A stretch of DNA of 64,000 nt from Nostoc foliaceum FACHB-393 (GTDB lineage: Bacteria > Cyanobacteriota > Cyanobacteriia > Cyanobacteriales > Nostocaceae), in NCBI RefSeq assembly GCF_014698505.1, contig NZ_JACJTD010000024.1, positions 62,001 to 126,000 on the forward strand, read 5' to 3'. Under the pieces are notes generated by a model. That model was not told the DNA's origin, did no database searches, and was given only the letters and a program-made list of their open reading frames with translations. The position numbers were made by a program, and so were the translations under genes. Positions 37,909 through 54,462 of the stretch are shown here, in pieces. How positions within the stretch are numbered: the first letter of the stretch is position 1; every line of letters begins with the position of its first letter.

Positions 37909-37947
37909 AGCCGGGTTTTTTAAGTTTGATAGCGAAAAAACCCGGCT
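37909..37947 (-). terminator. Strong terminator at the end of the lipoxygenase operon (bidirectional)
   Basis: A 13-bp perfect stem, AGCCGGGTTTTTT / AAAAAACCCGGCT, with a 13-base loop. On the minus strand it is followed by a run of seven T. It begins 17 bases after the stop of the gene ending at 37964. Confidence 0.9.
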
Positions 37948-37963
37948 TTCTGTTATATCCTTA

Positions 37964-39022
37964 CTAGAACCCGATAACTCCCGGAATCTCAAGGACAAAA
38001 TCTGCCCCATATACAGATGCAGGAGTCTGGAATCCTACCTTAACTTCGCCTTTAATTACCCGTTTGATAACTGCTACAGCCGCCAATGCCGTAAAATCGT
38101 ATGCTTCCGGCCCCAAGAGCTTTGCAGTTACTTGTTGACCAGTTTCATCTTCAGCAATACCAATTACTCTAACTTGACCTTTGGCTCGTTCTGCCGCCGT
38201 TGGCCCAGTGGGTAGAGTTTTAATTAGACTTGCTAAAGCACTTTGGAATAAAGACGAGTTAAATAACCATCCCAAATACTGGCTCGACTCCATCAGGAAG
38301 CGCACAGGATTAGGAAATACGGTATAAACCTCAATATTGGGAATACCCGTAGTCTGAAACGCAGTAATAATATCAGCACGCCAAGGGTTTGTTACTGCTG
38401 TTACCGGCCCATAACCAAAATCAATTTTACGCTTTTTCCATGCTGGTCTAGATGGGATGAGCTTACCTGCTTCTCGAATTACCCCCATGTGATGTAAAGT
38501 TGGCAGTACAGTATTTGCCGTTCCTTGAGATACACCCCCTACTGTTTCATAGACTAAAATCAGTCGTGTTGCCATCGCTAACTTATCTTTGAGATAAGCA
38601 GCTACACAATCAGTAGGGACAACCCCAAATCCCACACCAGGGAGAAGCATTATCCCTGCACTTTTAGCCTTAGTATCTCGTGCTTGTAGCACCTGAAATT
38701 CAGGTACTTCGCCAGCTATGTCTAAATAATGAGTTTTAGTTTGGAGACAGGCATCGACAAGTGGCTTTGAGGTTTTGGAGAAAGGCCCAGAGCAGTTGAT
38801 GACAGCGATTATATCCTCAAGAGAGCGAGCGATCGCCTGCGGATCATCTAAGCCAAAAACCCGAAAGTCCAAACTTAATTCATTGGCTACTGCTGCCAGT
38901 AAACTTTGATTACGTCCAGCCAAAATTAATTCCAGTCCGTTATTTTTAGCTGATGTAGCAATCAGTTTTCCAGCATAGCCAGTTGCACCATACAATAACA
39001 CCCTTGATGTCATTATTATCAC
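37964..39022 (-). CDS. Saccharopine dehydrogenase-like NAD(P)-binding reductase (trans-acting enoyl reductase type)
   Basis: A 352-residue protein with an N-terminal Rossmann fold (VLLYGATGYAGKLIA, about residues 7-21), the INCSGPFSKTSKPLVDACL region and HYLDIAGEVPEFQVL, all typical of the saccharopine dehydrogenase/trans-acting enoyl reductase family. Members reduce C=C or C=N bonds or act with lipid and polyketide enzymes. A second ATG at 39013 (MTSRVLL) is an equally good start. It is the last gene of the lipoxygenase operon, three bases after the ABM gene, and is closed by a strong terminator. A reductase step on an oxidised lipid is a fair inference. Confidence 0.85.
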   Translation of the reverse strand: MIIMTSRVLLYGATGYAGKLIATSAKNNGLELILAGRNQSLLAAVANELSLDFRVFGLDDPQAIARSLEDIIAVINCSGPFSKTSKPLVDACLQTKTHYLDIAGEVPEFQVLQARDTKAKSAGIMLLPGVGFGVVPTDCVAAYLKDKLAMATRLILVYETVGGVSQGTANTVLPTLHHMGVIREAGKLIPSRPAWKKRKIDFGYGPVTAVTNPWRADIITAFQTTGIPNIEVYTVFPNPVRFLMESSQYLGWLFNSSLFQSALASLIKTLPTGPTAAERAKGQVRVIGIAEDETGQQVTAKLLGPEAYDFTALAAVAVIKRVIKGEVKVGFQTPASVYGADFVLEIPGVIGF

Positions 39023-39025
39023 CAG

Positions 39026-39334
39026 CTAGGAATTGTTCACAATCTGCTGCCATAACCTGACATCAGGTGGTTCAACCAAAAATTGTCCTGACTTTTCCCC
39101 CAAAGCTTTAATATACGGCTGCTCTAGGTGTTGAGCTAAAATTTCCTGGCTAACCCAGTTTTCATGCAACAGAAACAAAGATGGATCTTCAACAGATTGA
39201 TGTAAATCGTAATTAATACAACCTTCTTCTGTAAGGGTAAGAGCTATTACGGGTTGGAATTCCTGCTTGAATTTATCCTCTAAACCCGGCTTCACTTTTA
39301 GTCGAGCGGTGACGGTTACTTGCTGATTTGACAT
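39026..39334 (-). CDS. Antibiotic biosynthesis monooxygenase (ABM) family protein
   Basis: A 102-residue ferredoxin-like alpha/beta barrel of the ABM family. VTVTARLKVKPGLEDKFKQEF (about 5-25) and EEGCINYDLHQSVEDPSLFLLHENW (about 36-60) match the conserved strands. Members oxidise quinols or aromatic substrates without cofactors or stabilise reactive intermediates. The gene lies 47 bases after the lipoxygenase-like gene and three bases before the saccharopine-dehydrogenase-like gene, so all three are almost certainly translated from one message. Confidence 0.9.
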   Translation of the reverse strand: MSNQQVTVTARLKVKPGLEDKFKQEFQPVIALTLTEEGCINYDLHQSVEDPSLFLLHENWVSQEILAQHLEQPYIKALGEKSGQFLVEPPDVRLWQQIVNNS

Positions 39335-39349
39335 TGTTATTCCTCTTTT

Positions 39350-39387
39350 CTGGAAAACTAACTTAAGTCTGGAAAACTAACTTAAGT
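39350..39387. repeat. 19-bp tandem duplication at the 3' end of the lipoxygenase-like gene
   Basis: CTGGAAAACTAACTTAAGT occurs twice in direct succession (39350-39368 and 39369-39387). The second copy contains the last codon (Thr) and the stop of the lipoxygenase-like gene. Confidence 0.9.
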
Positions 39388-41034
39388 ATTGATGCTGTTA
39401 ATAATTTGCGAAGGCTTAAGGTAGTTATAAGGTATGGGACGAGTTTGATTTCTGATGTCTATCTGCCGTTCTATTTCATGCAAATTATGTTGGAATTGCA
39501 CCACAATTTCCTGCGCCAATGGATCAGCAAACTCCTCATCATAAAAACCTAATTTGTCATAATGAAACGATGTTAAAATCTCAGTCCACATCACCTGATC
39601 GGCAGCTTGTTTAAAGGGAGGAAGTATCTTCAAGATAGTTTCCAAGTCCACACCCTTAGTTTCTGGAATTGGGTGGTAGGCTGCATAGGGCATATTGGGT
39701 ACGAAAGCCATATATTCGTACTGAGAAAAATTCAAAGCAGAGTGTAGAGGAGCGCAAGTGAAGACTACTACACTAATGATTTCAATTAGTTGTTCTAGAG
39801 TCTCAATCTTGGCTGGCATTCCTTTGACCCTACCACCATCTTGGGCAACTAATTCCCTAGCCCAATTTTGCAATTCATAGTCATCACTGAGATCCTGTGA
39901 ATTTTTGTAATAGAGTTGCAAGTATTCAGCCACAAACTTTTCGACGGCATTCCAGATTAATATGCCATCGTCCCGGAAAGGAAAGTGCGGTAAAATTGCT
40001 GGGTCATCTGTTTGACGACTTTTTATTAACCGAGGAAAGGTAAACTTTTCTACACTCCATTCTTCATAAGCCTTCGCCACAAATCCAACAGATTCTGCCA
40101 ATGAACCTGCCATAAACTCATCAACCGGCCCACCAGGCTGTAAAAACTGAGTGCGTCCCAAATCGTTATCAAATAGCATGAAACGGAAATGGGGTTTTAA
40201 CAGTAAAGCGATGGGATGATTTTCTGCTAGTTGCCGCGCAGTGACAATCGCGAACGGAGCCATAACTGCATGGGTATAAGCGAAATGACTACCCAATTCT
40301 TGATGGTTGCCATCAGCAATTTGGACGCAGGTTTTTGCCAAAAACCAATCTAAATGGGGGTCATCTGGTGTATAAATCAGGCTATTTGTGCCAGAGTCAT
40401 GATTAATCTGGATAGCAACAGGCACTAGAGAACAGCCATTATGACTATCATTACTTTGCCAGTAAAATAGAGCCTGCGGTTTGGGAAGGTACTTTTTAAT
40501 ATTATTGTAGACACCACCTTGAATATCAGAGAGCAAAGGGTAATCTAAGAAATACAGCTTACCTTCCTTGAGTGCCTTTTCTAAAGTAAATTCTGTACCT
40601 GCAACCTTCTGAAAATGGTAATCAGTTACAGCAAAATTATCAGGCAATACATCAATTCTTCGGATAGCTAATGGGTTTGCTCCAGAGAGTCGTTGTTCAG
40701 CAAAACACGAGTCTGTTTTGTAATTCTTTATGACATCGGGTTTTGATAGTAGTGGCAAAAGGTCTTCATATTCTTCCAATTCATCCAGCGGATCTAGGAA
40801 GTTTCTGGTTTTGGCAGCCAACATATTTGGTACCAAAGTTGCCATACTTGCCAAGCGTTTAGCAGTATATTCCGCTGAAAATATTTCCTTGTGAGGCACT
40901 TTATCGATTACTGGAATAGGAGCCAGATAATCATAATTAAAATTGTACTCTTCTCGATTTTTATCGAGCGAACTTGTTCGATAACTACTATTTGGATCGT
41001 TCTGCGGTAAGTAGGGTTTCATAATTATCTCCAA
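39382..41034 (-). CDS. Lipoxygenase-family protein with altered iron-ligand residues
   Basis: A 550-residue single-domain lipoxygenase homologue without the N-terminal PLAT domain. The central block runs WFLAKTCVQIADGNHQELGSH then FAYTHAVMAPF (about 230-261) and HPIALLLKPHFR (273-284); HSALNFSQYEY is at 431-441. Lipoxygenases bind iron with three His, one Asn/His and the C-terminal Ile carboxylate. Here His250, His431 and Asn435 are kept, but the first ligand position aligns with Gln245 (His stands one residue earlier) and the C-terminus is Thr550 instead of Ile. The enzyme may be inactive, use another geometry or have a new role. It is fifth of seven genes in an operon with diheme cytochromes, an Old Yellow Enzyme and reductases. 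Confidence 0.9.
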   Translation of the reverse strand: MEIIMKPYLPQNDPNSSYRTSSLDKNREEYNFNYDYLAPIPVIDKVPHKEIFSAEYTAKRLASMATLVPNMLAAKTRNFLDPLDELEEYEDLLPLLSKPDVIKNYKTDSCFAEQRLSGANPLAIRRIDVLPDNFAVTDYHFQKVAGTEFTLEKALKEGKLYFLDYPLLSDIQGGVYNNIKKYLPKPQALFYWQSNDSHNGCSLVPVAIQINHDSGTNSLIYTPDDPHLDWFLAKTCVQIADGNHQELGSHFAYTHAVMAPFAIVTARQLAENHPIALLLKPHFRFMLFDNDLGRTQFLQPGGPVDEFMAGSLAESVGFVAKAYEEWSVEKFTFPRLIKSRQTDDPAILPHFPFRDDGILIWNAVEKFVAEYLQLYYKNSQDLSDDYELQNWARELVAQDGGRVKGMPAKIETLEQLIEIISVVVFTCAPLHSALNFSQYEYMAFVPNMPYAAYHPIPETKGVDLETILKILPPFKQAADQVMWTEILTSFHYDKLGFYDEEFADPLAQEIVVQFQHNLHEIERQIDIRNQTRPIPYNYLKPSQIINSINT

Positions 41035-41117
41035 TTCAGGTATTTATGATTTGGTAGTAAATCATTAACATCAGAACGTTGCTAAATCATTTTCTTATGA
41101 TTTATTCCCCAGTTTAA

Positions 41118-42551
41118 TTACAGGGTTTTAAGATATTCAATCAAAGCTTTTTTATCTTCACCAGATAAATCAGTTCCATAAACATGCCCTTGATTGGAAT
41201 TAGCAGTTACGGTTGTATCGTATTTAAAACCTACAGCCTTGGCCTCATCTCCCTCAGTAATAAAGCCAACTTTTTTTGGATCGTAGACATCATATCCTCG
41301 ATAAAAAACCTGAGGACGATTTTCTGGTTTTTCTAACAAATCTTGTAGAGATGGGACTGAACCATTATGTAAATATGGCGCTCTTAACCACAAACCATCT
41401 AGGGAAACAGATACATACCCATTAGTTTTGCGTAAGTTTTTAAAGTCCCAAGGGTAGCCATCACCAAAATGATTGTAAGTATCTGCTCCTTCCTGTGTCC
41501 ACATATCTAACCGATGGCGGTCAGTTCCCACTTCTTCCACAGGGATGACAGTACCTGTTCTTTCTCCACCAAAAGCGTGACAAGATGCACAAGTATTAGC
41601 AAAAATTTGGCTTCCTTTTGTAGCCACTTGCTCATCAATAGCAAATGGATATTTGGGAGGTGGTAGTTCTTGAATAAAATCTTCTACCCGCTGTAAATCA
41701 GCTACAGGAAGTGATTTTTTGGTAGCACCGTCACCAATTGCTCCAGTTTGAACAGTTTCTGTTAGTGAAGTTTCTAAACCATCCCAATGGAGAGCAAACC
41801 CTTTGTGCATCTTTTGATTCCAAAGAGGCATCATATCAGAGTTGCCGATAGTGTTATCTTTGGGCAACTTTAAAGTATTGAATTTAACCGGGTTAAAAGG
41901 GTCAATTCGACCAGGGCCCCAGTTAGGACGGGAATCTGTCCAACTATAGTCTTCTTTTTGTTGCAGCAGCGCTTTCTTAGTTTGAGGAATTAGCACATAG
42001 CGATAAAGTAAATTTTCTAACCAAGAAAGCCGATAGTTATATTTGATTTCATCAAGGATATAATCTGCCGTAAATCTGGAATCACCAGCACTTGCACTCA
42101 AAAATCGTAAATAGCCTTGTGAATCAAACTTATTAGCAGGGGCTGCGGCGACAATTGTGGGTTTATCTTTCTCTGTTTTTCTATAGGTGGCGGTATGGCA
42201 AACAGCACAAGTTATACCGACACGAGGGAAGCCGATGGTTTTTTTTGTAAAGCCAACTGGCATTTCTTTACCCTCTTCCCATGTGATTCCCAAGGAAGTA
42301 TAACCACCTGGTCCTGGTAACTTATCAGGGAATATTCGTGGTAGTACCATCCAAATCCAATAGGGAACACCTTGTGCTTCTTCTGTGCCAATAGAACCAT
42401 ATTTAAAGTGTTCTTCAGGGGATTCATAATAAGTGGGAACCTCTCGAAAAAGGTTATACCATCCCACATACCCTACTACACCAACTAAAAGGATCACAAC
42501 TAAAACAATGCTTGTGATTACCCTACCTATTTTATCTTTGAGTATTGTCAT
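41118..42551 (-). CDS. Membrane-anchored diheme c-type cytochrome (peroxidase/RoxA-like)
   Basis: A 477-residue protein with an N-terminal membrane anchor (about 12-32) and two haem c sites: CAVCH (C115-H119) and CASCH (about 324-328). The C-terminal part has APYLHNGSVPSLQDLLE and YRGYDVYDPKKVGF, typical of the diheme cytochrome c peroxidase superfamily, which includes MauG, RoxA rubber oxygenase and the OdsA-type fatty acid dioxygenases. The ATG at 42551 is preferred to an upstream GTG (42608) because AAGGAG lies 12 bases before it. It faces the periplasm or thylakoid lumen and is the fourth gene of the operon. It is a paralogue of the protein at 43063. Confidence 0.88.
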   Translation of the reverse strand: MTILKDKIGRVITSIVLVVILLVGVVGYVGWYNLFREVPTYYESPEEHFKYGSIGTEEAQGVPYWIWMVLPRIFPDKLPGPGGYTSLGITWEEGKEMPVGFTKKTIGFPRVGITCAVCHTATYRKTEKDKPTIVAAAPANKFDSQGYLRFLSASAGDSRFTADYILDEIKYNYRLSWLENLLYRYVLIPQTKKALLQQKEDYSWTDSRPNWGPGRIDPFNPVKFNTLKLPKDNTIGNSDMMPLWNQKMHKGFALHWDGLETSLTETVQTGAIGDGATKKSLPVADLQRVEDFIQELPPPKYPFAIDEQVATKGSQIFANTCASCHAFGGERTGTVIPVEEVGTDRHRLDMWTQEGADTYNHFGDGYPWDFKNLRKTNGYVSVSLDGLWLRAPYLHNGSVPSLQDLLEKPENRPQVFYRGYDVYDPKKVGFITEGDEAKAVGFKYDTTVTANSNQGHVYGTDLSGEDKKALIEYLKTL

Positions 42552-42626
42552 GGCACTCTCTTGCTCCTTTGCAGAAGAATCTATTTGTAGTGCAGGCAAT
42601 ATACCCACACTAGGCTAGAGATAAAA

Positions 42627-43052
42627 TTAGGAAAATTGCTTTACTGGAGTTGTAGCAATGGCGTTTTGATTACGCATTGCTAGTGTCAGAAAAATTAATT
42701 CGGCTAATCCAAAAAACAGGTCTACAAAGGCAATGGATAAAAAGCCTTTATCTTGACCAAATAAAAATACTGCACAAATAAAAAACGTTGATCCAAAAGC
42801 TCTTGAAGGAAATATTGATATCCATGCTGTTGCCTGATATCGATATGGATCAATTGCTCCAGGGATATAAAATGCACTAATAATAAATAACAGCATTCCC
42901 GCAGCACGCACCCAGATAATTGGCACAGGTATCTGCATGTGGAGGAACGTCAGCATTAGCTCTGGAAAGAAGCAAGAGGGAATGACAAAAAACATATTAA
43001 CAATAATACCGAGCCAAGTAATGCGACTAAACCATTTCGCGTAAGTATTCAT
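42627..43052 (-). CDS. Small four-helix membrane protein
   Basis: A 141-residue integral membrane protein with four hydrophobic segments (about 12-35, 45-65, 80-100 and 105-127) and a short polar tail. I do not recognise a named family. It sits between two diheme cytochrome paralogues, 10 bases after one and 75 bases before the other, so it is very likely part of their complex or anchors them. A role in quinone or electron exchange is only a guess. Confidence 0.82.
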   Translation of the reverse strand: MNTYAKWFSRITWLGIIVNMFFVIPSCFFPELMLTFLHMQIPVPIIWVRAAGMLLFIISAFYIPGAIDPYRYQATAWISIFPSRAFGSTFFICAVFLFGQDKGFLSIAFVDLFFGLAELIFLTLAMRNQNAIATTPVKQFS

Positions 43053-43062
43053 TTTTCTCCTT

Positions 43063-44538
43063 TTAAAGCTTCTTCATATACTCAACTAGTGCATCTTTAT
43101 CTTCTGTGGGAAGATCAGTGCCGTATAAGTGGCCACTGTTACTATTTCCAGCCTTTGTTGTATCGAACTTAAAGTATTTTTTACCGTTTTCTCCACCTAC
43201 ATCAGACACAAAGCCAACTTTTTCTCTATCGATCACGTCATAGCCACGATAGAATTCTTTAGGTCTATTTTCTGGTGTTTCTAGCAAATCCCGTAAGGTG
43301 GGGACTGAGCCATTGTGCAGATAAGGGCCACGTAACCAAACACCATCAAGAGGCATATTTGCATAACCATTCGTCTTGCGGAAATTTGTAAATCGCCACG
43401 GATAGCCTGTATACAGCGTATTTTGGTTAGACATCGTTTCGTAGGTATATGAATCGAGACGATGGGGGTCTGTCCCAATTTCTTGAATTGGTACAACTTT
43501 GCCTGTATGAGCGCCACCAAAAGCATGACAACTAGCGCAATTACTTTCAAAAAGCTGTTCTCCCTTCGCTGCTATAGTTTCGTTAACTTCGTAGGGATAT
43601 TTTGGTGGTGGTAGTTCCCAAAGCCAATCGGCAACTCGCTGAATCCGAGGTAAATCAATTGTTGTGGGTGTGACTCCGGTGCCTAAAGCTGCACTCTTAT
43701 TACGTTCATCAACGGAAGTATTATTACCATCCCAATGTAATTGCAATCCCTCGCGCGGTTTTTGGTTCCAAACTGAGGGGAAATCAGAAGTACCAATAAG
43801 TTCATCCTGACGCAATTTATCCATTGGGAAATGGAATTGAATTGCTTTATAAGGATTAAAAGTATCTACTCTTCCTGGCCCCCAATCTGGTTGTTCTTCA
43901 ACAAACTTAAGCCGAGATGCCTGATTAATTAGCGCATCTCTAGTTTGAGGAATTGCAATGAAGCGATAAAGTAATTTTTCAACGGGATTTAGACCACCAC
44001 TAATTTTTTCTATTTCTGGCAACATCCGATTAGCAGTAAAGCGTTCATCCACACCAACTGCTGATAAGAATTTGATATATCCCTGCAAATTAAGCACATT
44101 AGCAGGCATCGTGGTGATGACTTGATGTTCGCTATTGGGGGTATCTCGTAGCGTCCCTGTATGACATACAGCACAATTCAACCCAACTCGATCAATAAAG
44201 ACTCTCCGTTGCGAAAAACCTATAGGTAAATCTTTGTCAGGTTCTTTGATAAATCCCAGAGAAGTATAACCTTTTCCAGGTAATTTATCTGGAAATAACT
44301 CTGGTAAAACTTTCCAAACCCAGTAAGGGATGCCATTGATGGGTTCGCTGCCGATTGAACCATATTTAAAGTGGTTTTCAATGTCAGCATAATCTACTGG
44401 GGAGTTAGATAAAACAGGCCACAATAAAAAGACTGCTACTGCTACAACGCCCACAATCACAACCCAAATCCGCTTGAAGATACTCTTTATTCCCTTGAGT
44501 GGGATAGAAAGTAGGGTAGGGTTAGTTTGTTCAGTCAT
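43063..44538 (-). CDS. Membrane-anchored diheme c-type cytochrome (peroxidase/RoxA-like)
   Basis: A 491-residue protein with an N-terminal membrane anchor (about 23-42) and haem c sites CAVCH (C122-H126) and CASCH (C334-H338). It shares GSIGSEPINGIPYWVWKVLP, FPDKLPGKGYTSLG, CASCHAFGG and YLHNGSVPTLRDLLE with the paralogue at 41118. The second haem region and the following tyrosine/tryptophan-rich segments match the diheme peroxidase superfamily. The two gene copies with a small membrane protein between them form a repeated module. Likely a periplasmic oxidase or oxygenase; the substrate is unknown. Confidence 0.88.
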   Translation of the reverse strand: MTEQTNPTLLSIPLKGIKSIFKRIWVVIVGVVAVAVFLLWPVLSNSPVDYADIENHFKYGSIGSEPINGIPYWVWKVLPELFPDKLPGKGYTSLGFIKEPDKDLPIGFSQRRVFIDRVGLNCAVCHTGTLRDTPNSEHQVITTMPANVLNLQGYIKFLSAVGVDERFTANRMLPEIEKISGGLNPVEKLLYRFIAIPQTRDALINQASRLKFVEEQPDWGPGRVDTFNPYKAIQFHFPMDKLRQDELIGTSDFPSVWNQKPREGLQLHWDGNNTSVDERNKSAALGTGVTPTTIDLPRIQRVADWLWELPPPKYPYEVNETIAAKGEQLFESNCASCHAFGGAHTGKVVPIQEIGTDPHRLDSYTYETMSNQNTLYTGYPWRFTNFRKTNGYANMPLDGVWLRGPYLHNGSVPTLRDLLETPENRPKEFYRGYDVIDREKVGFVSDVGGENGKKYFKFDTTKAGNSNSGHLYGTDLPTEDKDALVEYMKKL

Positions 44539-44604
44539 AAAACACTCCCTATATTGCCGAAATTATCTGTAAGCGAAATTGTCAATCTGATACCCATCGC
44601 TTTT

Positions 44605-45999
44605 TTACTTAGATGAATTTGCAAACTGAGTTGGATGAAAGACTGACATTACTTCTTCCATCATTTCTTCATAGCTATTGAAACGATCCTGCTCGTAACA
44701 ACCTAAGGGGTTTTCAATTACATTTAACAGACATTTATTACAATAAGTACACGGTTTATCTGCAAGGTCTTTACCTTCTTTAAAGGATTTAACTAAGTCA
44801 TTGTTAGCAATGAGGGTACGAGCCATTGTAACGCCATCGCAATATTTATCATTAATTGCTTGACGAATATAAGAAGCCTGCTGTAAACCACCTGTGCATA
44901 ATACGGGAATATTAACGTGCTTTTTAATTTCTCTGGAATCTAGCAAGTTTCTGCCTTGGTTCTCTGCCAGTAACTGCTTGATTTTCGGGTCTTTTATATC
45001 ATCACCACTAAATGCCTGGGGAGGCAATTGCTTTTTCACGCGGTTCCATAAACAATTGAAAAGTGGGTGTAAAAATGATTTGCGAAATAAAATGTAGTTG
45101 CGTGTGGTTTCAACGCCACTCGACAACATAGCGTCATAAGTTTTAGAAATAATATCAAAATTAAAATCACCAATGGGATTGAGTGGATGAGGAAATAAGC
45201 TACCAGTTGATACATGCACCCCATCAGCCCCAGCTTCTTCTGCCCATTTACAAACTTGGATAGAATCTTCTATGGTATTACCTGGCTTTTCCCAAAAGGT
45301 GACGGCGTTGTTATAGTCAACGGCACTAATTTTAAATTGCAAATGAAAGTCGTTGCCTACTTCTTTACGGATTGCTTTAATTACATCTAGCAAAAACCGC
45401 GCTCGATTCTCTAACGAACCACCGTATTCATCTTGACGGTCGTTGATTCCAGAACTGAGAAATTGGTTAAAAAGATATCCATTTGCACTGTGCAATTCTA
45501 CTCCATCTAAACCTGCTTCACGGGCACGTCTAGCACCATCGGCAAAGTATTGAATTGTTTCTTTAATTTCTGCTAGTGTCATTGCTTGACACAAAAAGCC
45601 GTGGAATGGCTCAGTTTGGCTGGTAGAACTTAACGCTTTTTTTCCTAAGTTTTCTATACCGCCAATGTCTTGCTGTCGCCCAGAATGACTTAATTGCAAG
45701 ATAAATTTACAGTCATATTCATGGACTTTTTCGCCTACTTTTCGCCAGAAAGGAATGCGCTCATCACAGTCAATGGTCGCGTAATTAGGCATAATTCGTC
45801 CCCGGATAGTGACTGGGACAAAGGAACTAATAATAGCCCCTACACCACCACGAGCAAACTTTTCTTCCCAGTTGATTCGGGCTTGGGTACCTGAACCATC
45901 ATAGTTATCCCATCTTCCAGAAATACTAGAGCGAAAAATCCGATTTTTGACTGTGAGGTTACGGAATTTCAATGGCTCGAAAATAATATCACTTTCCAT
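44605..45999 (-). CDS. NADH:flavin oxidoreductase / Old Yellow Enzyme family, with C-terminal Cys cluster
   Basis: A 464-residue FMN-binding TIM barrel. The N-terminus FEPLKFRNLTVKNRIFRSS, QLSHSGRQQ, the catalytic region GVELHSANGYLFNQFLS and NDRQDEYGGSLENRARF are hallmarks of the family. Near the C-terminus, CTYCNKCLLNVIENPLGC resembles the 4Fe-4S ligands of 2,4-dienoyl-CoA reductase, but the flavodoxin-like C-terminal domain of that enzyme is absent. Members reduce activated C=C bonds, for example in oxylipins. It is the first gene of the seven-gene operon, with a 661-base divergent regulatory region upstream. Confidence 0.93.
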   Translation of the reverse strand: MESDIIFEPLKFRNLTVKNRIFRSSISGRWDNYDGSGTQARINWEEKFARGGVGAIISSFVPVTIRGRIMPNYATIDCDERIPFWRKVGEKVHEYDCKFILQLSHSGRQQDIGGIENLGKKALSSTSQTEPFHGFLCQAMTLAEIKETIQYFADGARRAREAGLDGVELHSANGYLFNQFLSSGINDRQDEYGGSLENRARFLLDVIKAIRKEVGNDFHLQFKISAVDYNNAVTFWEKPGNTIEDSIQVCKWAEEAGADGVHVSTGSLFPHPLNPIGDFNFDIISKTYDAMLSSGVETTRNYILFRKSFLHPLFNCLWNRVKKQLPPQAFSGDDIKDPKIKQLLAENQGRNLLDSREIKKHVNIPVLCTGGLQQASYIRQAINDKYCDGVTMARTLIANNDLVKSFKEGKDLADKPCTYCNKCLLNVIENPLGCYEQDRFNSYEEMMEEVMSVFHPTQFANSSK

Positions 46000-46660
46000 G
46001 TGTTCCTCTGTTTTTATTTTGTTGTATCGCCAATAAAATTAATTAGGTATGAGAATTTTCCTAGCACTAATAACCTCTCCAGAAGACTGCTATTTCCAAT
46101 GTCTCTAGGATGGTAATTGTTTATGTCTACAAATCCACAGTGCAGGTTTTCGGATGCGAACGCCAAATATTAAGTTTTTGTTACTTAGATTTGGCTACCA
46201 AATTTCAGCATGGAAGTTTATCCTTATTGGTTTTTACAGTTATATAAAGTCTTTTGCCGTTTGTAAACCTACAGCATTAACCAACAAAATCTTAAAAAAA
46301 GTGAAAATTTTCGCCTTTTATTTCTCTTGAAAGGTTAAGGCAATCTTAAAATTAGCTTCTAACAATTTGTTACAAACTCAACCCACTATGCAGGGAATCG
46401 TTATAACCATAGCAAATTGGTTATTCAACACCATTGTTAGTTTACAATTTTTTAAATTTTTGATTTATAAATGTATAAAAGTTTATTGATGACGTTTTGC
46501 AAATTTGTGTAGTAACTTCATATATAACGAGCCTCAGTCAGGTACATTTTAAATCATCAAAAGTATCCCAATGCTAAATCCGGAAAATGGGAAATCAATG
46601 ATGGAGCATTAGTGTACCTCTGTAAACTGAGGTGCAGTGAAAAAGGTTTAAGAGAGTTTT
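46000..46660. promoter_or_regulatory. Divergent promoter region between the two oxylipin-like gene sets
   Basis: 661 AT-rich bases between the Old Yellow Enzyme gene (minus) and the third cytochrome gene (plus). No gene is supported on either strand. A divergent arrangement of this size is a natural place for a shared regulator to bind, but I could not identify an operator or assign promoter boxes with confidence. Confidence 0.45.
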
Positions 46661-48670
46661 ATGAAAAAGACAAGTCTAATTTTTAAGGGCTGTCTGCTCC
46701 TGCTATTCGTGACTATGTTTATAGTCTGCGGCTTTTATGGAACGCCTACAGCTCTAGCCGACGAGTATAGCGAAACACCTGCGCCACTAAGTAATAGTTA
46801 TCCTAATACGGGTGTATCTGAATACCCTGATAACTGTGAAGGTATCGGTTATCTCCCAGAATACAGAACGGAGAATTTGACAGATGCCGAGAAACGGGGT
46901 CGTTGCACCTGGTACTTATGGACTGGCGGTAACGCCAAGTACTATCGTGATTTAGCGAAGCGAACACATGGTGGTGTTGACTTACTAAAGCTAATTGACT
47001 CGCGTGTGCATGACGAGCGATTCCAACGCTATGGCGCAATTAACGATCCTGGATGTGAAAAAGCAACAACACCAGATGAATACGGTTTGTGGCTAGATAA
47101 GTGTAAAGACCCACTTTCAACCGGCGTTATTGGGTTGCGTAAGTTCCAAAACCCCAACTTCGACTCGGCAAAATGGAACCCTGTTGAATATGCCAAAACT
47201 TCACAAGTTGAGCCTCCCTACGTGATTGGGCAGTCTTGCGCCATCTGTCATGTAGCATTAGATCCTCTCAACCCACCGAAAGACAAGGAACATCCGAAAT
47301 GGGAAAACCTCGTAGCAGCATTGGGTAATCAGTACATCAAAGAAAACAAATTATTTGCATCCAGCGTTAGGGACAATAGTTTTGTTAAGCAAGTACTTGA
47401 CTCTCAGAGACCGGGTACCTCTGATACTTCTCGGATTGGTAACGATCACATCAATAATCCGAATGCGATCAATGCCATTTTTAATTTAGGCGATCGCCCC
47501 ACATATCCAGAGGTAATGAACGATGGTTCAACTCAGGATGTTAATCATATTCTCAAAGATGGCGCGGACTCTACAGGAGTGGCAAATGCCTCACTACGCG
47601 TCTACGTCAACATTGGGATGTGTGGCGATTACTGGACAACTCTCCATGAGCCTTTATTAGGCAGAACTCCCCAAAAACCTTTTGATATCGAAAAGGCGCG
47701 GAAGGAGTGCGAAGGGTGGAGACAAACAGAAGCACGCATGGCTGATGCGGAAGCATTCTTAAAAACCATCAAGCCGATGCACCTAAAAGATGCACCAGGT
47801 GGTGAAGAGTTCTTGACTAAAGATGAGGAAGTTCTCAAACGTGGCAAACTGGTTTTTGCTAGCACTTGTGCTGGTTGCCATTCCAGCAAAAAGCCATCGG
47901 CTGCGATCGCTGTTGACCCCGAACAGGCTCAGAAATGGTATGAAGAGTCTGTACTCAGTAGTAATTTTTTAGACCACAACTTCTTGTCTGATGACCAGCG
48001 TTATCCAGTGACACTAATTGGCACTAATGCGGCGCGATCGCTGGGAACAAATGCCACTAAGGGGCATATTTGGGATCAGTTCTCGTCGAAGACCTACAAA
48101 GAACTGCCATCACCAGGAACATTGACTCTGTACAACCCTTTCGATGAGAAAAAACCCATCGAATTTAAGATACCAGACGGCGGTTTGGGATATTACCGCA
48201 CACCTTCGCTAGTTAGTATTTGGGCAACAGCACCACTTCTGCACAACAATACACTAGGACTTTACAATGAAGATCCTTCAGTAAAAGGGCGTGTAGAAGC
48301 CTATACGGATGCTATGGAAAAGCTGTTGTGGCCTGAAAAGCGTGAAGGAATTATCAGCAGAACAACTAAAGATACCAAATTAGAGCTTCCCCCAGGAGAT
48401 CCGAATCCTAGATTTAGGATTCCTATTCCTAAAGGTACACCTGTGAATTTGCTAGCAAGTATCAATATTAGAGAGGCGATTACATCTCTTAATATCAGCA
48501 ACCTTTTTCAGGACTTGAAACCCAAGGATGGAATTAAGGGTAAGTTGGCACGCGTGCTTTTAAGAGCTAACAAATCTCCTGACTTCGTTGAAGATGAGGG
48601 TCATTATTTTGGCTCCAATCTACCAGATCAAGACAAGAAAGCCCTAATTGAGTTCGTGAAAACTTTCTAA
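46661..48670 (+). CDS. Secreted diheme c-type cytochrome, large form
   Basis: A 669-residue protein with a Sec signal peptide (hydrophobic 9-27, cleavage after TALA at about 33) and two haem c sites: CAICH (C193-H197) and CAGCH (C403-H407). LGYYRTPSLVSIWATAPLLHNNTLG (about 509-533) places it in the same broad diheme peroxidase/oxygenase superfamily as the two proteins across the divergent region, but with an extra N-terminal part. Its length is near that of rubber oxygenase RoxA and the diheme fatty acid dioxygenases of Pseudomonas. It is followed 95 bases later by a lipase-like gene. Confidence 0.9.
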   Translation: MKKTSLIFKGCLLLLFVTMFIVCGFYGTPTALADEYSETPAPLSNSYPNTGVSEYPDNCEGIGYLPEYRTENLTDAEKRGRCTWYLWTGGNAKYYRDLAKRTHGGVDLLKLIDSRVHDERFQRYGAINDPGCEKATTPDEYGLWLDKCKDPLSTGVIGLRKFQNPNFDSAKWNPVEYAKTSQVEPPYVIGQSCAICHVALDPLNPPKDKEHPKWENLVAALGNQYIKENKLFASSVRDNSFVKQVLDSQRPGTSDTSRIGNDHINNPNAINAIFNLGDRPTYPEVMNDGSTQDVNHILKDGADSTGVANASLRVYVNIGMCGDYWTTLHEPLLGRTPQKPFDIEKARKECEGWRQTEARMADAEAFLKTIKPMHLKDAPGGEEFLTKDEEVLKRGKLVFASTCAGCHSSKKPSAAIAVDPEQAQKWYEESVLSSNFLDHNFLSDDQRYPVTLIGTNAARSLGTNATKGHIWDQFSSKTYKELPSPGTLTLYNPFDEKKPIEFKIPDGGLGYYRTPSLVSIWATAPLLHNNTLGLYNEDPSVKGRVEAYTDAMEKLLWPEKREGIISRTTKDTKLELPPGDPNPRFRIPIPKGTPVNLLASINIREAITSLNISNLFQDLKPKDGIKGKLARVLLRANKSPDFVEDEGHYFGSNLPDQDKKALIEFVKTF

Positions 48671-48753
48671 GACAAGTTGTCTAGATGTTCTGCATTGCAA
48701 GTACTCGTTCCCAGATTAAACTTGGGAACGAGCAAAAATATTTATTAAATAGC

Positions 48754-48758
48754 GAGGA
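48754..48758 (+). promoter_or_regulatory. Ribosome site GAGGA that sets the lipase start
   Basis: GAGGA seven bases before the ATG at 48766; the longer in-frame start at 48685 lacks such a site. Confidence 0.6.
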
Positions 48759-48765
48759 TATATTT

Positions 48766-50238
48766 ATGCAGTATTTACCAATCATCTTCGTTCGTGGATA
48801 TGCAGGTACACAAAAAGACGTTGAACAAACGGTCAATGATCCATTTTATGGATTCAATAGTGGTTCAACCCATATTCGAGTAGATGAGAAAGAAAATCCC
48901 CAGAAGTTTTTTTTCGAGAGTCCATTGCTGCGGCTAATGACCGATCATGGTTATCAACCAATTGTTGACAATCAGAATATAAGCAATCAAATTAAGAGAT
49001 TGTCTAATCAACTTCATAAAACTATTTGGATCTATCGATTTTATGATATAACTACACGCAGTTTTGGTTCTAAGACTGAAGTCAGACAGGAAATGGAGGA
49101 AATAGCCAAGGGTTTAAGAGACCTAATCCAAACTGTCAAAAAAACTACAGGTGCAGGCAAAGTCTATCTTGTCGCCCATTCGATGGGAGGCCTTGTTTGT
49201 CGCAGCTTGATTCAAAAGATTTATCCAGAACAACGCGAACAAGCTGTCAATCACATTGATAAATTATTTACCTACGCCACACCTCATGGTGGCATTTATT
49301 TTGAGGTCGGGAGTGGTTTACTTGAAGAATTGAGGGACAGGTTTCAATTAAATAATTCTGATGACTTTGGTCCCCAGAGGATGTATCAGTATTTAACACC
49401 TTATATCAAGTCAACAGCTAAGTTACCCAATGACTTTAAGCTAGAAAAACTACAAAGCCTAGAAAATGCATTTTCGCCAAACCGCGTTTTTTCTCTGATT
49501 GGCACTAATGCACATGATTATGAAGAAGCTTTTGGTCTTTCACGCACGACTGTGGGGGTGAAAAGTGATGGTCTAGTTCAGATTGATAAAGCTTACATCA
49601 CCGGATCTCATCGTGCCTATATTCATCGCTCTCATGGTGGGCGTTATGGCATATTGAACTCGGAAGAAGGTTATCAAAACCTGCAACGCTTTCTGTTTGG
49701 TGATATCCAGGTGAAACTGTCTCTAAGCAATGTCCAGTTGAAAGACCTGGACAAGAATTTTTATCAACTGGAAACTAGGGTTGCTTTGCGTGGTCTTCCT
49801 ATCCCTATATATGAGCAAGCGATCGCTCATTATTGCCCAATCACACAAGAGTTAACAAGAAAAGATAAACCCATTCCCTTGTTTACAGCCTTTTTAATCC
49901 CAAAAAACTCAGCCAGTGATGATAACGTCTGTAGATATGCCCTGCGTTTAGCACTGCATTCCTTCACAAAACAAGAGACGAATTGGTTGCGTGACAGTCA
50001 TCTCGACCAAGTACCCCTGTGGTCTGACTATCTAATTACTGATGTTGCCGCAACAGATGGCACATATGACGCTAAATACAGTTGGAATTCCGATGAGAAA
50101 GAGCCAGTAACAAACTTAAATCCCACTTCAGAATCCAGTTCAAGTATATATGTTGCATATGTTCCCCTACCTGACCGTGGGCAAAAAGTTTTAGGAACAA
50201 ACGCGGCAGTTCGCTTGGAAATTTCTCGATGGCAATAA
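48766..50238 (+). CDS. Alpha/beta hydrolase, lipase-like
   Basis: A 490-residue protein. The opening strand LPIIFVRGYAGTQ resembles the oxyanion-loop region of lipases and PGAP1/LipA-like esterases. The nucleophile elbow AHSMGG puts the catalytic Ser at residue 139. TYATPHGGIYFEVG follows, and an acid/His pair probably lies in the GVKSDGLVQIDKAYI and YIHRSHGGRYGI region. The C-terminal third (about 330-490) is beta-rich and unrecognised. No signal peptide is visible. The ATG at 48766 is chosen for its ribosome site. Position between a diheme cytochrome and an SDR suggests it supplies free fatty acids; that is inference. Confidence 0.83.
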   Translation: MQYLPIIFVRGYAGTQKDVEQTVNDPFYGFNSGSTHIRVDEKENPQKFFFESPLLRLMTDHGYQPIVDNQNISNQIKRLSNQLHKTIWIYRFYDITTRSFGSKTEVRQEMEEIAKGLRDLIQTVKKTTGAGKVYLVAHSMGGLVCRSLIQKIYPEQREQAVNHIDKLFTYATPHGGIYFEVGSGLLEELRDRFQLNNSDDFGPQRMYQYLTPYIKSTAKLPNDFKLEKLQSLENAFSPNRVFSLIGTNAHDYEEAFGLSRTTVGVKSDGLVQIDKAYITGSHRAYIHRSHGGRYGILNSEEGYQNLQRFLFGDIQVKLSLSNVQLKDLDKNFYQLETRVALRGLPIPIYEQAIAHYCPITQELTRKDKPIPLFTAFLIPKNSASDDNVCRYALRLALHSFTKQETNWLRDSHLDQVPLWSDYLITDVAATDGTYDAKYSWNSDEKEPVTNLNPTSESSSSIYVAYVPLPDRGQKVLGTNAAVRLEISRWQ

Positions 50239-50329
50239 AGGAGGCAGGGGGAGAAGAATTAATAACCAATGCCCAATGCCCAATAACTAATGATTCTTTT
50301 TTTTTCAAGCAGTTAAGAGAGGAAAATTT

Positions 50330-51121
50330 ATGCAGAGTAATCGCAGACAAACGGCTCTTATTACTGGTGCATCTGGCGGCATCGGTTATGAATTTGTTAA
50401 GTTATTTGCTCAGGATGGTTACAACCTTGTGTTGGTAGCTAGAAGCGTGGAAAAGCTGAATAAAATTGCCGATGAATTTAAAAATAAATTTGGCATTGGT
50501 GTCAAAGTTATTTCCAAGGATTTATCTAACCCAGCAGCCCCAGAAGAAATTTTTAATGAGTTAGAACAAGCATCTATAAAAGTTGATGTGCTGGTGAACA
50601 ATGCGGGGTTTGCTACCTACGGATTATTTAATGAAATTGACCTGAATGCTGAACTGCAATTGTTACAGGTTAATATTTTATGTCTCACACATTTGACCAA
50701 GTTATTCCTCAAGGGTATGGTTAAACGGGGGTCTGGAAAAATATTAAATGTGGCCTCCACTGCTGCTTTTCAACCAGGGCCGCTGATGGCAGTATACTAC
50801 GCTAGTAAAGCCTATGTCTTATCATTCACAGAAGCGATCGCTAATGAATTAGAAGATACAGGTGTCTCTGTGACGGCGCTTTGTCCAGGGCCTACAGAAT
50901 CTGGTTTTCAAGAAAGAGCCGCGATGGAAGACTCAAAGCTGGTAAGCGGTCGAAAAATTATGACTGCGGAAACAGTAGCCCAGATCGGCTATCGTGGTCT
51001 ATTGGAAAACAAAACTGTTGTCGTTCCTGGAATTAAAAATAAGCTTCTCGCTGAATCTGTAAGATTTACTCCCAGAAAGCTAGTAACTAAACTAGTCAGA
51101 AACATGCAAGAAAGCAAATAA
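50330..51121 (+). CDS. SDR-family oxidoreductase
   Basis: A 263-residue classical short-chain dehydrogenase. TGASGGIG (12-19) binds the cofactor, NNAG is at 90-93, and the catalytic residues are Ser143, Tyr156 and Lys160. ALCPGPTESGF follows. The set resembles the DltE/YqjQ-type SDRs that act on hydroxy or keto lipids. The ribosome site AGAGAGGAAAA precedes the ATG. It is the third gene of the plus-strand set and could interconvert hydroxy and keto fatty acids made by its neighbours. Substrate not established. Confidence 0.92.
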   Translation: MQSNRRQTALITGASGGIGYEFVKLFAQDGYNLVLVARSVEKLNKIADEFKNKFGIGVKVISKDLSNPAAPEEIFNELEQASIKVDVLVNNAGFATYGLFNEIDLNAELQLLQVNILCLTHLTKLFLKGMVKRGSGKILNVASTAAFQPGPLMAVYYASKAYVLSFTEAIANELEDTGVSVTALCPGPTESGFQERAAMEDSKLVSGRKIMTAETVAQIGYRGLLENKTVVVPGIKNKLLAESVRFTPRKLVTKLVRNMQESK

Positions 51122-52821: not shown

Positions 52822-54462
52822 ATGGCAAAGATTGCATTGCTGATTGGAGTTAGTGATTACGAACCAGCACTGAATCCGCTACCTGCGGCGATTAAGGATG
52901 TAGATAGTATGCATCGGGTTTTACAATCTGCCGAAATGGGCGGATTTGACGAGGTAAAAATCTTAAAAAACCCTGATCCTCAAACGATGCAATATGAGAT
53001 TGAAACTTTGTTCGCAGGTCGTAGCAAAGATGATCTTTTACTGCTGTTCTTTTCAGGACATGGTATCAAGGATGATAGTAATAATTTGTACTTTGCTACT
53101 CCTATTACCCGCAAAACTGTAAAGGGAGAACTGATACGCTCAACAGCAGTACCTAGTCGCTTTGTTCATGATGTGATGAATAATAGCCGTGCCAAACGTC
53201 AAGCACTTATTTTGGACTGTTGCTTTAGTGGAGCTTTTGACCCATCCTTACAAACAAAAGATGACGGTTCGGTTGATCTACAAGGACAGTTGGGAGCAGA
53301 AGGGCGAGTTGTTTTAACTTCTTCTAGCTCAACTCAATATTCCTTTGCACAAGAGAATTCAGAACTATCGCTTTATACGCGCTACTTAGTTGAGGGGATC
53401 GAAACAGGCGCAGGTGATCGTGACGAAGATGGCAAAGTCTCGATACGCGAACTGCATGAATACGCTACTGGCAAAGTGCAGGAAACCGCACCTAACATGA
53501 CACCGAAACTAATCACTCTCAAAGATATGGGCTTTGAGATTGTCTTGGCAAAAGCAAAAATCGCTGATCATGAGCTAAGGTATCGTAGGCTAGTTGAGAA
53601 GTATGCTAGTCGTGGTGCAATTTCTGCGATCGGACGTAGAGTTCTAGATACACATCGGGATCAATTAGGCTTATCGGCAGAAATTGTTAAGGAGATAGAA
53701 AAGGAAGTCTTACGTCCTTATCAGCTACGTCTCGAAAACTTGCAGAAGTATAAACAGGCATTTTCCACTGAGATTCAAAATGAATACCCGCTCAGTACCC
53801 ACGCCCGAAGTGAATTAGATGATTGGCGAGAGATTCTGGGATTGAGAAAAGAGGATGTAGCATCAATTGAAGAAGAGTTTGCTAAAGTAGAACCACCTAA
53901 TGCAAGGCAGGAAAGAGTTGTTCCAGAAAAAGATAATTCAACTGAAATGATATCTCCAGAAGTTCTGCCTCAATATCGTACAGAGTCTGTTATGCAACCT
54001 AAAGATGGGGTAACTACTCAGCCTGTACAACCTAAAATAACTTCTTTAGACGAGTCTCGTTATCAACAAGAAAGTTCTAATTCAGACGCTAATCTAACTT
54101 CCTCACTAAAAGCGCGTATTAGCAGAGCTAATTTTAAAGTATGGCAGTGGGGATGTGGTTTCCTTTTTATTGCCACACTTTTTAACTACTTTGCTTCCCT
54201 TCGTAATGCTATTAATTATGCCAATTTTTCAGGTACACTGTTAAATTGGACATTGGTATTTTTTACTACATTATTTCTGGCTGCTTTTCGACCTATTCCC
54301 TGGACTTGGGCTGTTGCAGGTGTTGTAATTCCATATTCTGTATTCTTGTTGCATTATTGGTATAATAGCTTTATTGGGATGCTTATTATTGTTACTTTTA
54401 CTAATAGTCTGATCGTGGGATTCATCTCATTTTTAAGATTTCAGCAGATAACCAAAAATTGA
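52822..54462 (+). CDS. Caspase-like peptidase with C-terminal membrane domain
   Basis: A 546-residue protein. The caspase fold (1-240) has KIALLIGVSDYEPALNPLPA, catalytic His80 (FFSGHGI) and Cys134 (DCCFSGAF), followed by the SSSSTQYSFAQENSELSLYT strand and an acidic RDEDGKVS loop. A helical domain (about 248-370) with RYRRLVEKYASRGAISAIG resembles helices seen beside cyanobacterial effectors. A polar linker leads to four membrane helices (about 430-540). The ribosome site AGGAGG is close to the ATG. Together with EACC1 this looks like a death or conflict module; cleavage targets are unknown. Confidence 0.9.
   Translation: MAKIALLIGVSDYEPALNPLPAAIKDVDSMHRVLQSAEMGGFDEVKILKNPDPQTMQYEIETLFAGRSKDDLLLLFFSGHGIKDDSNNLYFATPITRKTVKGELIRSTAVPSRFVHDVMNNSRAKRQALILDCCFSGAFDPSLQTKDDGSVDLQGQLGAEGRVVLTSSSSTQYSFAQENSELSLYTRYLVEGIETGAGDRDEDGKVSIRELHEYATGKVQETAPNMTPKLITLKDMGFEIVLAKAKIADHELRYRRLVEKYASRGAISAIGRRVLDTHRDQLGLSAEIVKEIEKEVLRPYQLRLENLQKYKQAFSTEIQNEYPLSTHARSELDDWREILGLRKEDVASIEEEFAKVEPPNARQERVVPEKDNSTEMISPEVLPQYRTESVMQPKDGVTTQPVQPKITSLDESRYQQESSNSDANLTSSLKARISRANFKVWQWGCGFLFIATLFNYFASLRNAINYANFSGTLLNWTLVFFTTLFLAAFRPIPWTWAVAGVVIPYSVFLLHYWYNSFIGMLIIVTFTNSLIVGFISFLRFQQITKN

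Follow-up and report, generated by a model that had tools for sequence, protein, structure and literature searches.

A Nostoc gene island that looks like an exchangeable lipid-oxidation pathway

The window analyzed here is a stretch of 64,000 nucleotides from the 8.87 Mb genome of Nostoc foliaceum FACHB-393 (contig NZ_JACJTD010000024.1, positions 62,001 to 126,000). It holds an island of ten genes, which encode an Old Yellow Enzyme (OYE), three di-heme cytochromes (CYT1, CYT2 and CYT3), a small membrane protein (TM4), a lipoxygenase (LOX), a small protein of the antibiotic-biosynthesis-monooxygenase fold (ABM), a saccharopine-dehydrogenase-like oxidoreductase (SDHL), a lipase-like hydrolase (LIP) and a short-chain dehydrogenase (SDR). 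The island looks like an undescribed, exchangeable lipid-oxidation pathway. With moderate confidence, we read the locus as the Nostoc form of a modular lipid (oxylipin-type) oxidation pathway with a swappable oxygenase slot, its substrate, product and role being putative. The constant arm comprises OYE, two anchored RoxA-like di-heme cytochromes, TM4 and the exported CYT3, an order shared by Nostoc and the rhizobial plasmids; the variable arm carries the first oxidizing enzyme and differs between genomes at a single Nostoc locus. We favor a modular pathway because the neighborhood is kept in Nostoc and recurs in the same order on four rhizobial plasmids, and because the CYT1 and CYT2 clades cross phyla and the cassette differs between alleles. 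An initial annotation, made from the window alone, had proposed an oxylipin-type gene island; it is partly supported, and gains strength from a module that spans two phyla and from an exchanged cassette. To our knowledge, little has been described of oxylipin pathways in bacteria apart from individual enzymes and a two-gene Pseudomonas operon, and no description of the module was found in the literature searched, most subscription journals being outside its coverage.

Results

Core and periphery of the island in Nostoc

The distribution of the island was surveyed in a sample of 53 genomes of the genus. CYT1 (at least 79% identity) was found in 23 of them and CYT3 in the same 23; OYE was present in these and also in genome G337, where a shortened OYE and a shortened CYT2 lie close to a contig end. 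Genome G318 held only a 33% relative of CYT1, located in another operon, and in the remaining 28 genomes a CYT1 match was absent, as were OYE and CYT3 at the thresholds used. LOX (at least 92% identity) occurred in 13/53 genomes, exactly those with a CYT1 at least 94% identical, and it adjoined CYT1 by coordinates in all 13; the count includes G297 and G338, where the matches come in pieces, the smallest G297 pieces scoring lower. The named records with the nearest LOX (95–96% identity) are Nostoc mirabile, Nostoc sp. CHAB 5836 and N. favosum. The ratio of nonsynonymous to synonymous substitution (dN/dS) was 0.05–0.15 for eight core gene pairs (window versus locus L043 or L033), and for ABM it was 0.07–0.15 in three comparisons. 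The eight core genes are under purifying selection, and the island is not a chance grouping. The initial annotation had staked its reading on neighbors that are conserved together in other genomes; they are, in Nostoc and, for part of the set, on the four rhizobial plasmids described below.

The core is CYT3-OYE-CYT2-TM4-CYT1-LOX-ABM-SDHL. LIP and SDR, which the initial annotation had taken as fixed parts, are loosely attached and are neighbors, because LIP is missing or partial in some island genomes and both are present without the island in G339. LIP fell under the threshold in 2/23 island genomes and was partial in 1/23, and in G339 both genes stand next to a RadC-like gene. At L033 (coordinates of contig C280 of genome G302), SDR and a LIP remnant lie on a contig other than that of the island. 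Of nine relatives whose sequence extends far enough past SDHL, six share the flanking genes of the window there and three (L034, L037 and L043) do not. In a second survey, of 292 cyanobacterial genomes drawn across the phylum, SDHL matches (E ≤ 1e-30) were found in four, two of these being the present island; around the SDHL relatives in G005 (49%) and G053 (39%), a CxxCH-bearing gene was absent from the stretches read.

A cassette exchanged at one Nostoc locus

The locus was read in ten genomes that carry CYT1 at 79–82% identity. This other allele keeps SDR, LIP, CYT3, OYE and CYT2 at about 82–96% protein identity (in L105, SDR is split and OYE shortened), and TM4-CYT1-LOX-ABM-SDHL is replaced by a diverged CYT1 directly after CYT2, then a TM4 homolog of 37–40% identity. 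In 7/10 genomes the TM4 homolog has an extra domain and a length of 426 amino acids (aa); after it comes a GMC oxidoreductase, the gene of which is split over two frames in L105. Between the window and five other-allele loci, synonymous divergence (dS) was 0.2–0.5 in SDR, LIP, CYT3, OYE and CYT2, rose to 1.1–1.2 in CYT1, and was saturated in TM4. This jump in dS places an abrupt boundary between CYT2 and CYT1, the pattern that exchange of a cassette at one fixed position would leave. The L106 GMC enzyme is nearest to cholesterol oxidases (1b4v, E 1.5e-40), although its score with the cholesterol oxidase model NF058674 (258 bits) is far under the cut-off of 850.

The fusion genes of 426 aa were seen in L103, L104, L106, L107, L109 and L110, with an extra domain of about 290 aa that belongs to no known family. 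Its sole plasmid homolog at the threshold, on Mesorhizobium pOM4 (30% identity), has a GMC-patatin fusion and a CYT3-like gene in its vicinity. The likeness of this domain to catalases is one of motif only (blastp E 0.013 and 0.34, hhalign probability 1.5%, PDB matches meaningless). CYT2-TM4-CYT1 as one fused protein, to which a long joined frame had pointed, was rejected, each gene having its own stop in 11/11 copies checked.

The core beyond the cyanobacteria

The core extends past cyanobacteria. Among the 292 cyanobacterial genomes, the di-heme subfamily model NF040606 (NCBIfam, cut-off 150 bits) matched in 24 at E ≤ 0.001 and above the cut-off in 5; a lone CYT1-like gene occurs in G105 (61% identity to CYT1) and a lone CYT2-like gene in G211 (51% to CYT2). 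In a collection of plasmids, CYT1 found 65 records, TM4 19 (16 Rhizobium, 2 Sinorhizobium, 1 Qingshengfaniella) and CYT3 21 (18 Rhizobium, 2 Sinorhizobium, 1 Mesorhizobium). The order OYE, CYT2, TM4, CYT1, a long CYT3 relative and GMC was found in all four rhizobial plasmids with the full set that were read (H2, H3, H6 and H11), and LOX was absent from these four loci. The GMC gene is followed by a patatin-annotated gene in H3 and H11, by hypothetical genes in H6 and by an unrelated regulator in H2. Identity between the Nostoc and rhizobial proteins was 53–54% for OYE, 48–51% for CYT2, 40–42% for TM4, 47–49% for CYT1 and 28–29% for CYT3, the last over about 850 columns with rhizobial proteins of 924–929 aa (E 1e-95 to 3e-92). 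In a tree, for which the program flags long branches in some rows, the Nostoc and rhizobial CYT1 proteins formed one clade (100/99) and the CYT2 proteins a separate clade (95/96). Since each clade spans both phyla, the pair predates the split of the lineages or moved as a pair.

Other di-heme loci have other company. Qingshengfaniella has a divergent An_peroxidase, then an FAD oxidase, TM4, a cytochrome and a hydrolase; Sinorhizobium fredii has a di-heme gene and a patatin amid transposases; and in Paracoccus yeei the di-heme gene stands with catalase-family and peroxidase-family genes. The theme of lipids is suggested by these neighbors, because patatin, An_peroxidase, alpha-dioxygenase and cholesterol-oxidase-like GMC genes sit beside related di-heme genes.

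A second cross-phylum operon, with 30–50% identity between its two copies, was observed in Nostoc G318 (L114, 4625–11345) and Rhizobium phaseoli (L098, 7000–13516). It encodes a protein with a catalase-like N-terminus and an An_peroxidase domain, a small membrane protein (five segments in R. phaseoli), a di-heme cytochrome and an unknown protein, in a gene order that differs between the two. The best solved match of the G318 peroxidase is alpha-dioxygenase 4hhr (E 2e-121). Directly after a CYT3-like gene, Mesorhizobium L099 (11357–16045) has a GMC oxidoreductase of 1562 aa, with a C-terminal patatin match just under the cut-off, and Rhizobium sp. CCGE532 (L117, 14326–18939) has a similar GMC-like protein of 1537 aa.

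Di-heme cytochromes and TM4

CYT1, CYT2 and CYT3 have two CxxCH motifs apiece. The Pfam profile RoxA-like_Cyt-c (PF21419) was matched in CYT1 and CYT2, and CYT3 fell under the gathering score. Likewise CYT1 (185 bits) and CYT2 (189 bits) pass NF040606, a model that we take to cover Pseudomonas aeruginosa PA2077 and PA2078, and CYT3 (44 bits) does not. Hydropathy gave a single N-terminal membrane segment in CYT1 and in CYT2, a signal-like N-terminus in CYT3, and four membrane segments in TM4, for which the Pfam search returned no match. A profile of ten CYT1/CYT2-type proteins found the rubber oxygenase RoxA (4b2n, E 3.4e-24), the only full-family solved relative of the two that was found; the curated RoxA model (cut-off 1000) was not reached by CYT1 (61 bits) or CYT2 (49 bits).

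Residue roles in RoxA follow PMC4496055 and PMC6797691. In our alignment RoxA W302 corresponds to W275 of CYT1, the tryptophan being kept in both CYT1 and CYT2, and the C-terminal-heme histidine of RoxA aligns with H475. RoxA F301 is replaced by histidine in both (H274 in CYT1), and F317 by isoleucine in CYT1 and leucine in CYT2. According to the published homology model, PA2077 and PA2078 have glutamine at the F301 position (PMC4496055). The initial annotation had likened the diheme proteins to the Pseudomonas OdsA type; this fits CYT1 and CYT2 at the level of the subfamily, and is not borne out by the residue at the F301 position, histidine and not glutamine, or by CYT3.

TM4 lies between CYT2 and CYT1 in the rhizobia too, and the rhizobial CYT3 relative comes directly after CYT1 in the same operon. 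Because TM4, or the five-segment protein of R. phaseoli, recurs beside a di-heme gene, the small protein with multiple transmembrane segments suggests a membrane partner at that step. The AlphaFold model of TM4 (predicted local distance difference test, pLDDT, 54) was too poor for a fold search. A natural variant was seen in Nostoc G338 (L113, 7301–8781), in which CYT1 is broken into two frames and the other island genes are open.

A lipoxygenase with a rebuilt clamp

LOX matched the Pfam profile Lipoxygenase (PF00305) over the catalytic domain (E 7e-61, 207 bits against a cut-off of 23.6), and its nearest solved structures are the CspLOX2 entries 5med–5meg (E 2e-131 to 2e-130). We aligned 12 island copies (the window and 11 relatives) with 39 other cyanobacterial lipoxygenases; the 39 are part of those found, with further lipoxygenases of the Nostoc survey left out, and L085, a cut copy of the window, is uncounted. 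The iron ligands H, H, H and N, aligned with CspLOX2 positions 257, 262, 449 and 453, are kept in 12/12 island copies. Six positions of the active-site clamp are tabulated for CspLOX2 (PMC5437038). In that numbering they read F258, D296, G300, F304, W502 and L506 in all 12 island copies and in 0/39 others, and five of the six are unlike CspLOX2. The 39 have leucine at 258, isoleucine (25) or asparagine (14) at 296, and Trp502 in none; Gly300 and Phe304 (4/39) are seen also outside the island. The last residue is threonine in the window and the 11 relatives; among the 39 it is isoleucine in 37 and threonine in one. The carboxylate of the terminal threonine could still bind iron. LOX is thus a lipoxygenase by family and iron ligands, as first annotated, but not an ordinary one, for its clamp is rebuilt and its C-terminal isoleucine replaced by threonine.

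In a tree of 32 lipoxygenases, four of them island copies, the island group (100/100) stood on a long stem beside the group with Asn-296 and apart from the Ile-296 enzymes. In CspLOX2, the mutation Ala300Gly leads to 9R products, Ile296Ala to 9S products, and smaller residues at 502 and 506 to 13-products (PMC5437038). Because G300 and D296 would open the C9 side and F258 and W502 would crowd the C13 side, we predict for the island LOX an attack on the C9 side with R configuration, or the use of another, more polar substrate. For the sister enzymes with Asn-296, which have threonine, isoleucine or serine at 502, C13 attack is predicted. Directly upstream of the Asn-296 LOX, a weakly P450-like gene (16.5 bits, under the cut-off) stands in 3/20 loci read (for example L044, 4974–6338), a possible hydroperoxide-processing partner of that enzyme.

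Old Yellow Enzyme

OYE matched Oxidored_FMN (PF00724; E 1e-63, 216 bits). In an alignment with four rhizobial OYE proteins its active-site pair H170/N173 is invariant, and C417, C420, C423 and C434, a C-terminal CxxCxxCx10C motif, occur in all five sequences. In iron-sulfur (Fe-S) Old Yellow Enzymes the C-terminal cysteine cluster serves the Fe-S center, and by analogy a putative Fe-S center would lie at these cysteines. A second OYE, 63–66% identical, was observed in Nostoc G321 (L126, 8764–10197), where a CxxCH-bearing gene was absent within the 19 kb read.

Layout of the island

The ten open reading frames (ORFs), their order and strands (Table 1), the gaps of 3–83 bases and the divergent region are as the initial annotation had given them. 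From SDHL through OYE, the ORF coordinates leave gaps of 3, 47, 83, 18, 10 and 66 bases. The LOX ORF as listed begins at TTG, with an ATG at residue 5. A single terminator had also been claimed; no minus-strand candidate was found from 37400 to the end of SDHL, in a scan that as a whole stayed at the level of shuffled sequence (10 candidates versus a shuffle mean of 11.4), and in the 661-base region promoter-like patterns were no commoner than in shuffles. Further Pfam matches were ABM (PF03992; E 2e-18, 67 bits), SDHL (Sacchrp_dh_NADP, PF03435; E 2e-10, 41.5 bits against a cut-off of 25.1), SDR (adh_short; E 5e-49) and, weakly, alpha/beta-hydrolase families for LIP. Hydropathy showed no signal or N-terminal membrane segment in LOX, OYE, ABM, SDHL, LIP or SDR, and one weak internal hydrophobic segment apiece in LOX and SDHL. 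Oxygenation in the periplasm or lumen, as first proposed, does not agree with a LOX that has no export signal by hydropathy; only CYT1, CYT2, CYT3 and TM4 are membrane-linked or exported. Near the island, at 52822–54462 of the window, lies a caspase-like protein, the start of which resembles peptidase C14 by eye.

Table 1. Genes and divergent region of the island, in coordinates of the window
Feature	Coordinates	Strand	Description
SDHL	37964..39022	-	saccharopine-dehydrogenase-like NADP-binding oxidoreductase, 352 aa; final gene of the LOX cassette
ABM	39026..39334	-	small antibiotic-biosynthesis-monooxygenase-fold protein, 102 aa
LOX	39382..41034	-	single-domain lipoxygenase, 550 aa; rebuilt active-site clamp (F D G F W L), C-terminal Thr
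CYT1	41118..42608	-	membrane-anchored RoxA-like di-heme cytochrome, 496 aa; CxxCH at 134 and 340
TM4	42627..43052	-	141 aa, four predicted transmembrane segments, no known family
CYT2	43063..44538	-	membrane-anchored RoxA-like di-heme cytochrome, 491 aa; CxxCH at 122 and 334
OYE	44605..45999	-	Old Yellow Enzyme family flavoenzyme, 464 aa
Intergenic region	46000..46660		661 bases, divergent; presumed common control region
CYT3	46661..48670	+	exported di-heme cytochrome, 669 aa
LIP	48685..50238	+	alpha/beta-hydrolase, lipase-like, 517 aa; peripheral
SDR	50330..51121	+	short-chain dehydrogenase, 263 aa; peripheral

Discussion

A pathway is a plausible reading of the island because the LOX iron ligands, RoxA W302 in CYT1 and CYT2, and the His/Asn pair of OYE are all kept. 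In the scheme that we propose, a hydrolase would release an acyl chain, from which, in the allele of the window, a cytosolic LOX would form a hydroperoxide at the membrane face. The next step would fall to the anchored di-heme proteins, in which an inter-heme tryptophan is conserved and the C-terminal heme is presumably of the bis-His type; at the outer face they would convert the hydroperoxide or introduce a second oxygen, acting as isomerase, peroxidase or dioxygenase with TM4 as a putative membrane partner. SDR, SDHL or a GMC enzyme would convert an allylic alcohol to an enone, which OYE would reduce. The end product, an oxo or hydroxy lipid, would probably serve in signaling or defense. 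What holds of the oxylipin-type island first annotated is that the genes belong together and that related di-heme genes sit beside lipid enzymes; its claims of the OdsA type, of a periplasmic LOX step and of a fixed lipase and SDR are weakened.

Several observations weigh against this scheme, the weakest points of which are the substrate and the link between the cytosolic and the outward-facing steps. The activities of the island proteins are assigned by enzyme class, from sequence. LOX, OYE, ABM, SDHL and SDR look cytosolic and the cytochromes face outward, so that an intermediate would have to cross the membrane or the two halves would use different pools. The chemistry of RoxA is not transferable to CYT1 and CYT2, because both distal phenylalanines (F301 and F317) are missing. 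CYT3 is distant from both, the profile comparison aligning 35 columns round the heme motif, and the AlphaFold (AF2) model of CYT1 (pLDDT 38) was too poor for a fold search. The rebuilt LOX pocket, with Asp296 where isoleucine (25/39) or asparagine (14/39) stands elsewhere, may not take an ordinary fatty acid. Near the Asn-296 relatives of LOX, no island cytochromes or OYE were found in the 20 loci read, L120–L125 among them having been compared only with each other. At L108 and L111 of the other allele only a short TM4 is present, with no GMC after it and LOX also absent, and at L112 the frame after a short TM4 encodes 118 aa that resemble the extra domain (by eye), and there the contig ends. 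Outside the cyanobacteria, the survey covered plasmids, in a collection where legume symbionts are overrepresented.

The first alternative is defense against lipid peroxides, in which the di-heme proteins reduce hydroperoxides, OYE with SDHL or SDR clears enals and enones, and LOX is accessory. NCBI names the di-heme subfamily 'di-heme-cytochrome C peroxidase', the histidine at the RoxA F301 position could act as an acid-base group that RoxA is without, and the P. aeruginosa paper (PMC4496055) proposes a detoxifying role for PA2078. We consider this alternative unlikely, since a module equipped with a LOX, a GMC oxidase or an An_peroxidase would generate peroxides rather than remove them, and since 28/53 Nostoc genomes lack CYT1, OYE and CYT3 matches, unlike housekeeping detoxification. 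The substrate might instead be an isoprenoid, a sterol- or hopanoid-like compound or another hydrophobic molecule for which LOX has been re-purposed, as the rubber oxygenase RoxA being the sole full-family solved relative found, the cholesterol-oxidase-like GMC of the alternative cassette, and the change of LOX clamp positions 258, 296, 304 and 502 to F, D, F and W might indicate. That seems similarly unlikely to us, given that the patatin lipases and the alpha-dioxygenase beside related di-heme genes indicate acyl chains, that GMC stays at 258 bits where the cholesterol oxidase cut-off is 850, and that the distal Phe pair of RoxA is missing in CYT1 and CYT2. That LOX-ABM-SDHL merely adjoins an unrelated cytochrome/OYE operon, with no joint pathway in this allele, is very unlikely: other Nostoc genomes do hold the core without LOX, and the nearest LOX relatives are located elsewhere without these neighbors, but LOX adjoins CYT1 in exactly the 13 genomes with the closest CYT1, TM4, CYT1, LOX, ABM and SDHL change together from one allele to the other, purifying selection acts on all of them, and among the lipoxygenases aligned the rebuilt pocket was seen only in island copies.

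Within the preferred reading of a modular lipid-oxidation pathway, a further idea is rather unlikely but worth stating. A mobile modular pathway might be common to Nostoc and root-nodule bacteria, its constant electron-transfer and reduction arm (three di-heme cytochromes, OYE and the small membrane protein) being coupled to a lipoxygenase, an alpha-dioxygenase, a GMC oxidase or another enzyme that oxygenates or oxidizes lipids, with strains at one locus making differing oxygenated lipids for plant contact; the island LOX would then have a new substrate, for example a lipid that reaches it from the cytochromes already oxygenated. With a multi-gene module across two phyla, natural alleles that carry LOX, GMC or neither, and genomes that have no island, the chemistry becomes readable by comparison of strains. 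The island LOX proteins are a set of naturally rebuilt oxygen-steering clamps, and so offer a direct way to test the published CspLOX2 rules (PMC5437038).

Comparison with known systems

Like the Fe-S Old Yellow Enzymes (BaiCD, mycofactocin OYE2 and 2,4-dienoyl-CoA reductase), the island OYE has an FMN barrel, the His/Asn pair and a C-terminal cysteine cluster. Unlike them, it is without the FAD/NAD(P)H domain and has the spacing C-x2-C-x2-C-x10-C; a split profile match points to an apparent insertion at about residues 275–350, and the protein is far under the curated cut-offs of the Fe-S OYE models. RoxA (4b2n; PMC6797691) has its di-heme fold family in common with CYT1 and CYT2, with the C-terminal heme region and W302 aligning, whereas its distal Phe 301 and 317 are not kept. 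The oleate-diol synthase operon PA2078-PA2077 of P. aeruginosa (FadCcp; PMC4496055) likewise has two adjacent RoxA-like di-heme genes, whose proteins are described there as periplasmic, and the tryptophan between the hemes is found in CYT1 and CYT2 as in PA2077. At the RoxA F301 position the published model has glutamine in PA2077 and PA2078, in contrast to the histidine of CYT1 and CYT2. That operon consists of two genes; the island has in addition a third cytochrome, OYE and TM4, together with a cassette that bears LOX or an oxidase.

The linoleate 11R-lipoxygenase CspLOX2 of Cyanothece (5MED; PMC5437038) is, like the island LOX, a single catalytic domain with the same iron side-chain ligands. 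The clamp reads LIALLL in CspLOX2 versus FDGFWL in the island LOX. The near-identical genomic copy of CspLOX2, L060, ends in isoleucine where the island LOX ends in threonine, and its locus has none of the island's neighbor genes. Nostoc punctiforme PCC 73102 has two enzymes, NpLOX1 and NpLOX2, of 630 and 547 aa (PMC10177866), both termed linoleate 13-LOX in a review (PMC10487465). Compared by length alone, NpLOX2, from the same genus, is compatible with the island LOX or with the Asn-296 sister group, and it may be an ortholog of either; the clamp rule gives C9 for the island LOX, as opposed to the C13 reported for the NpLOX enzymes.

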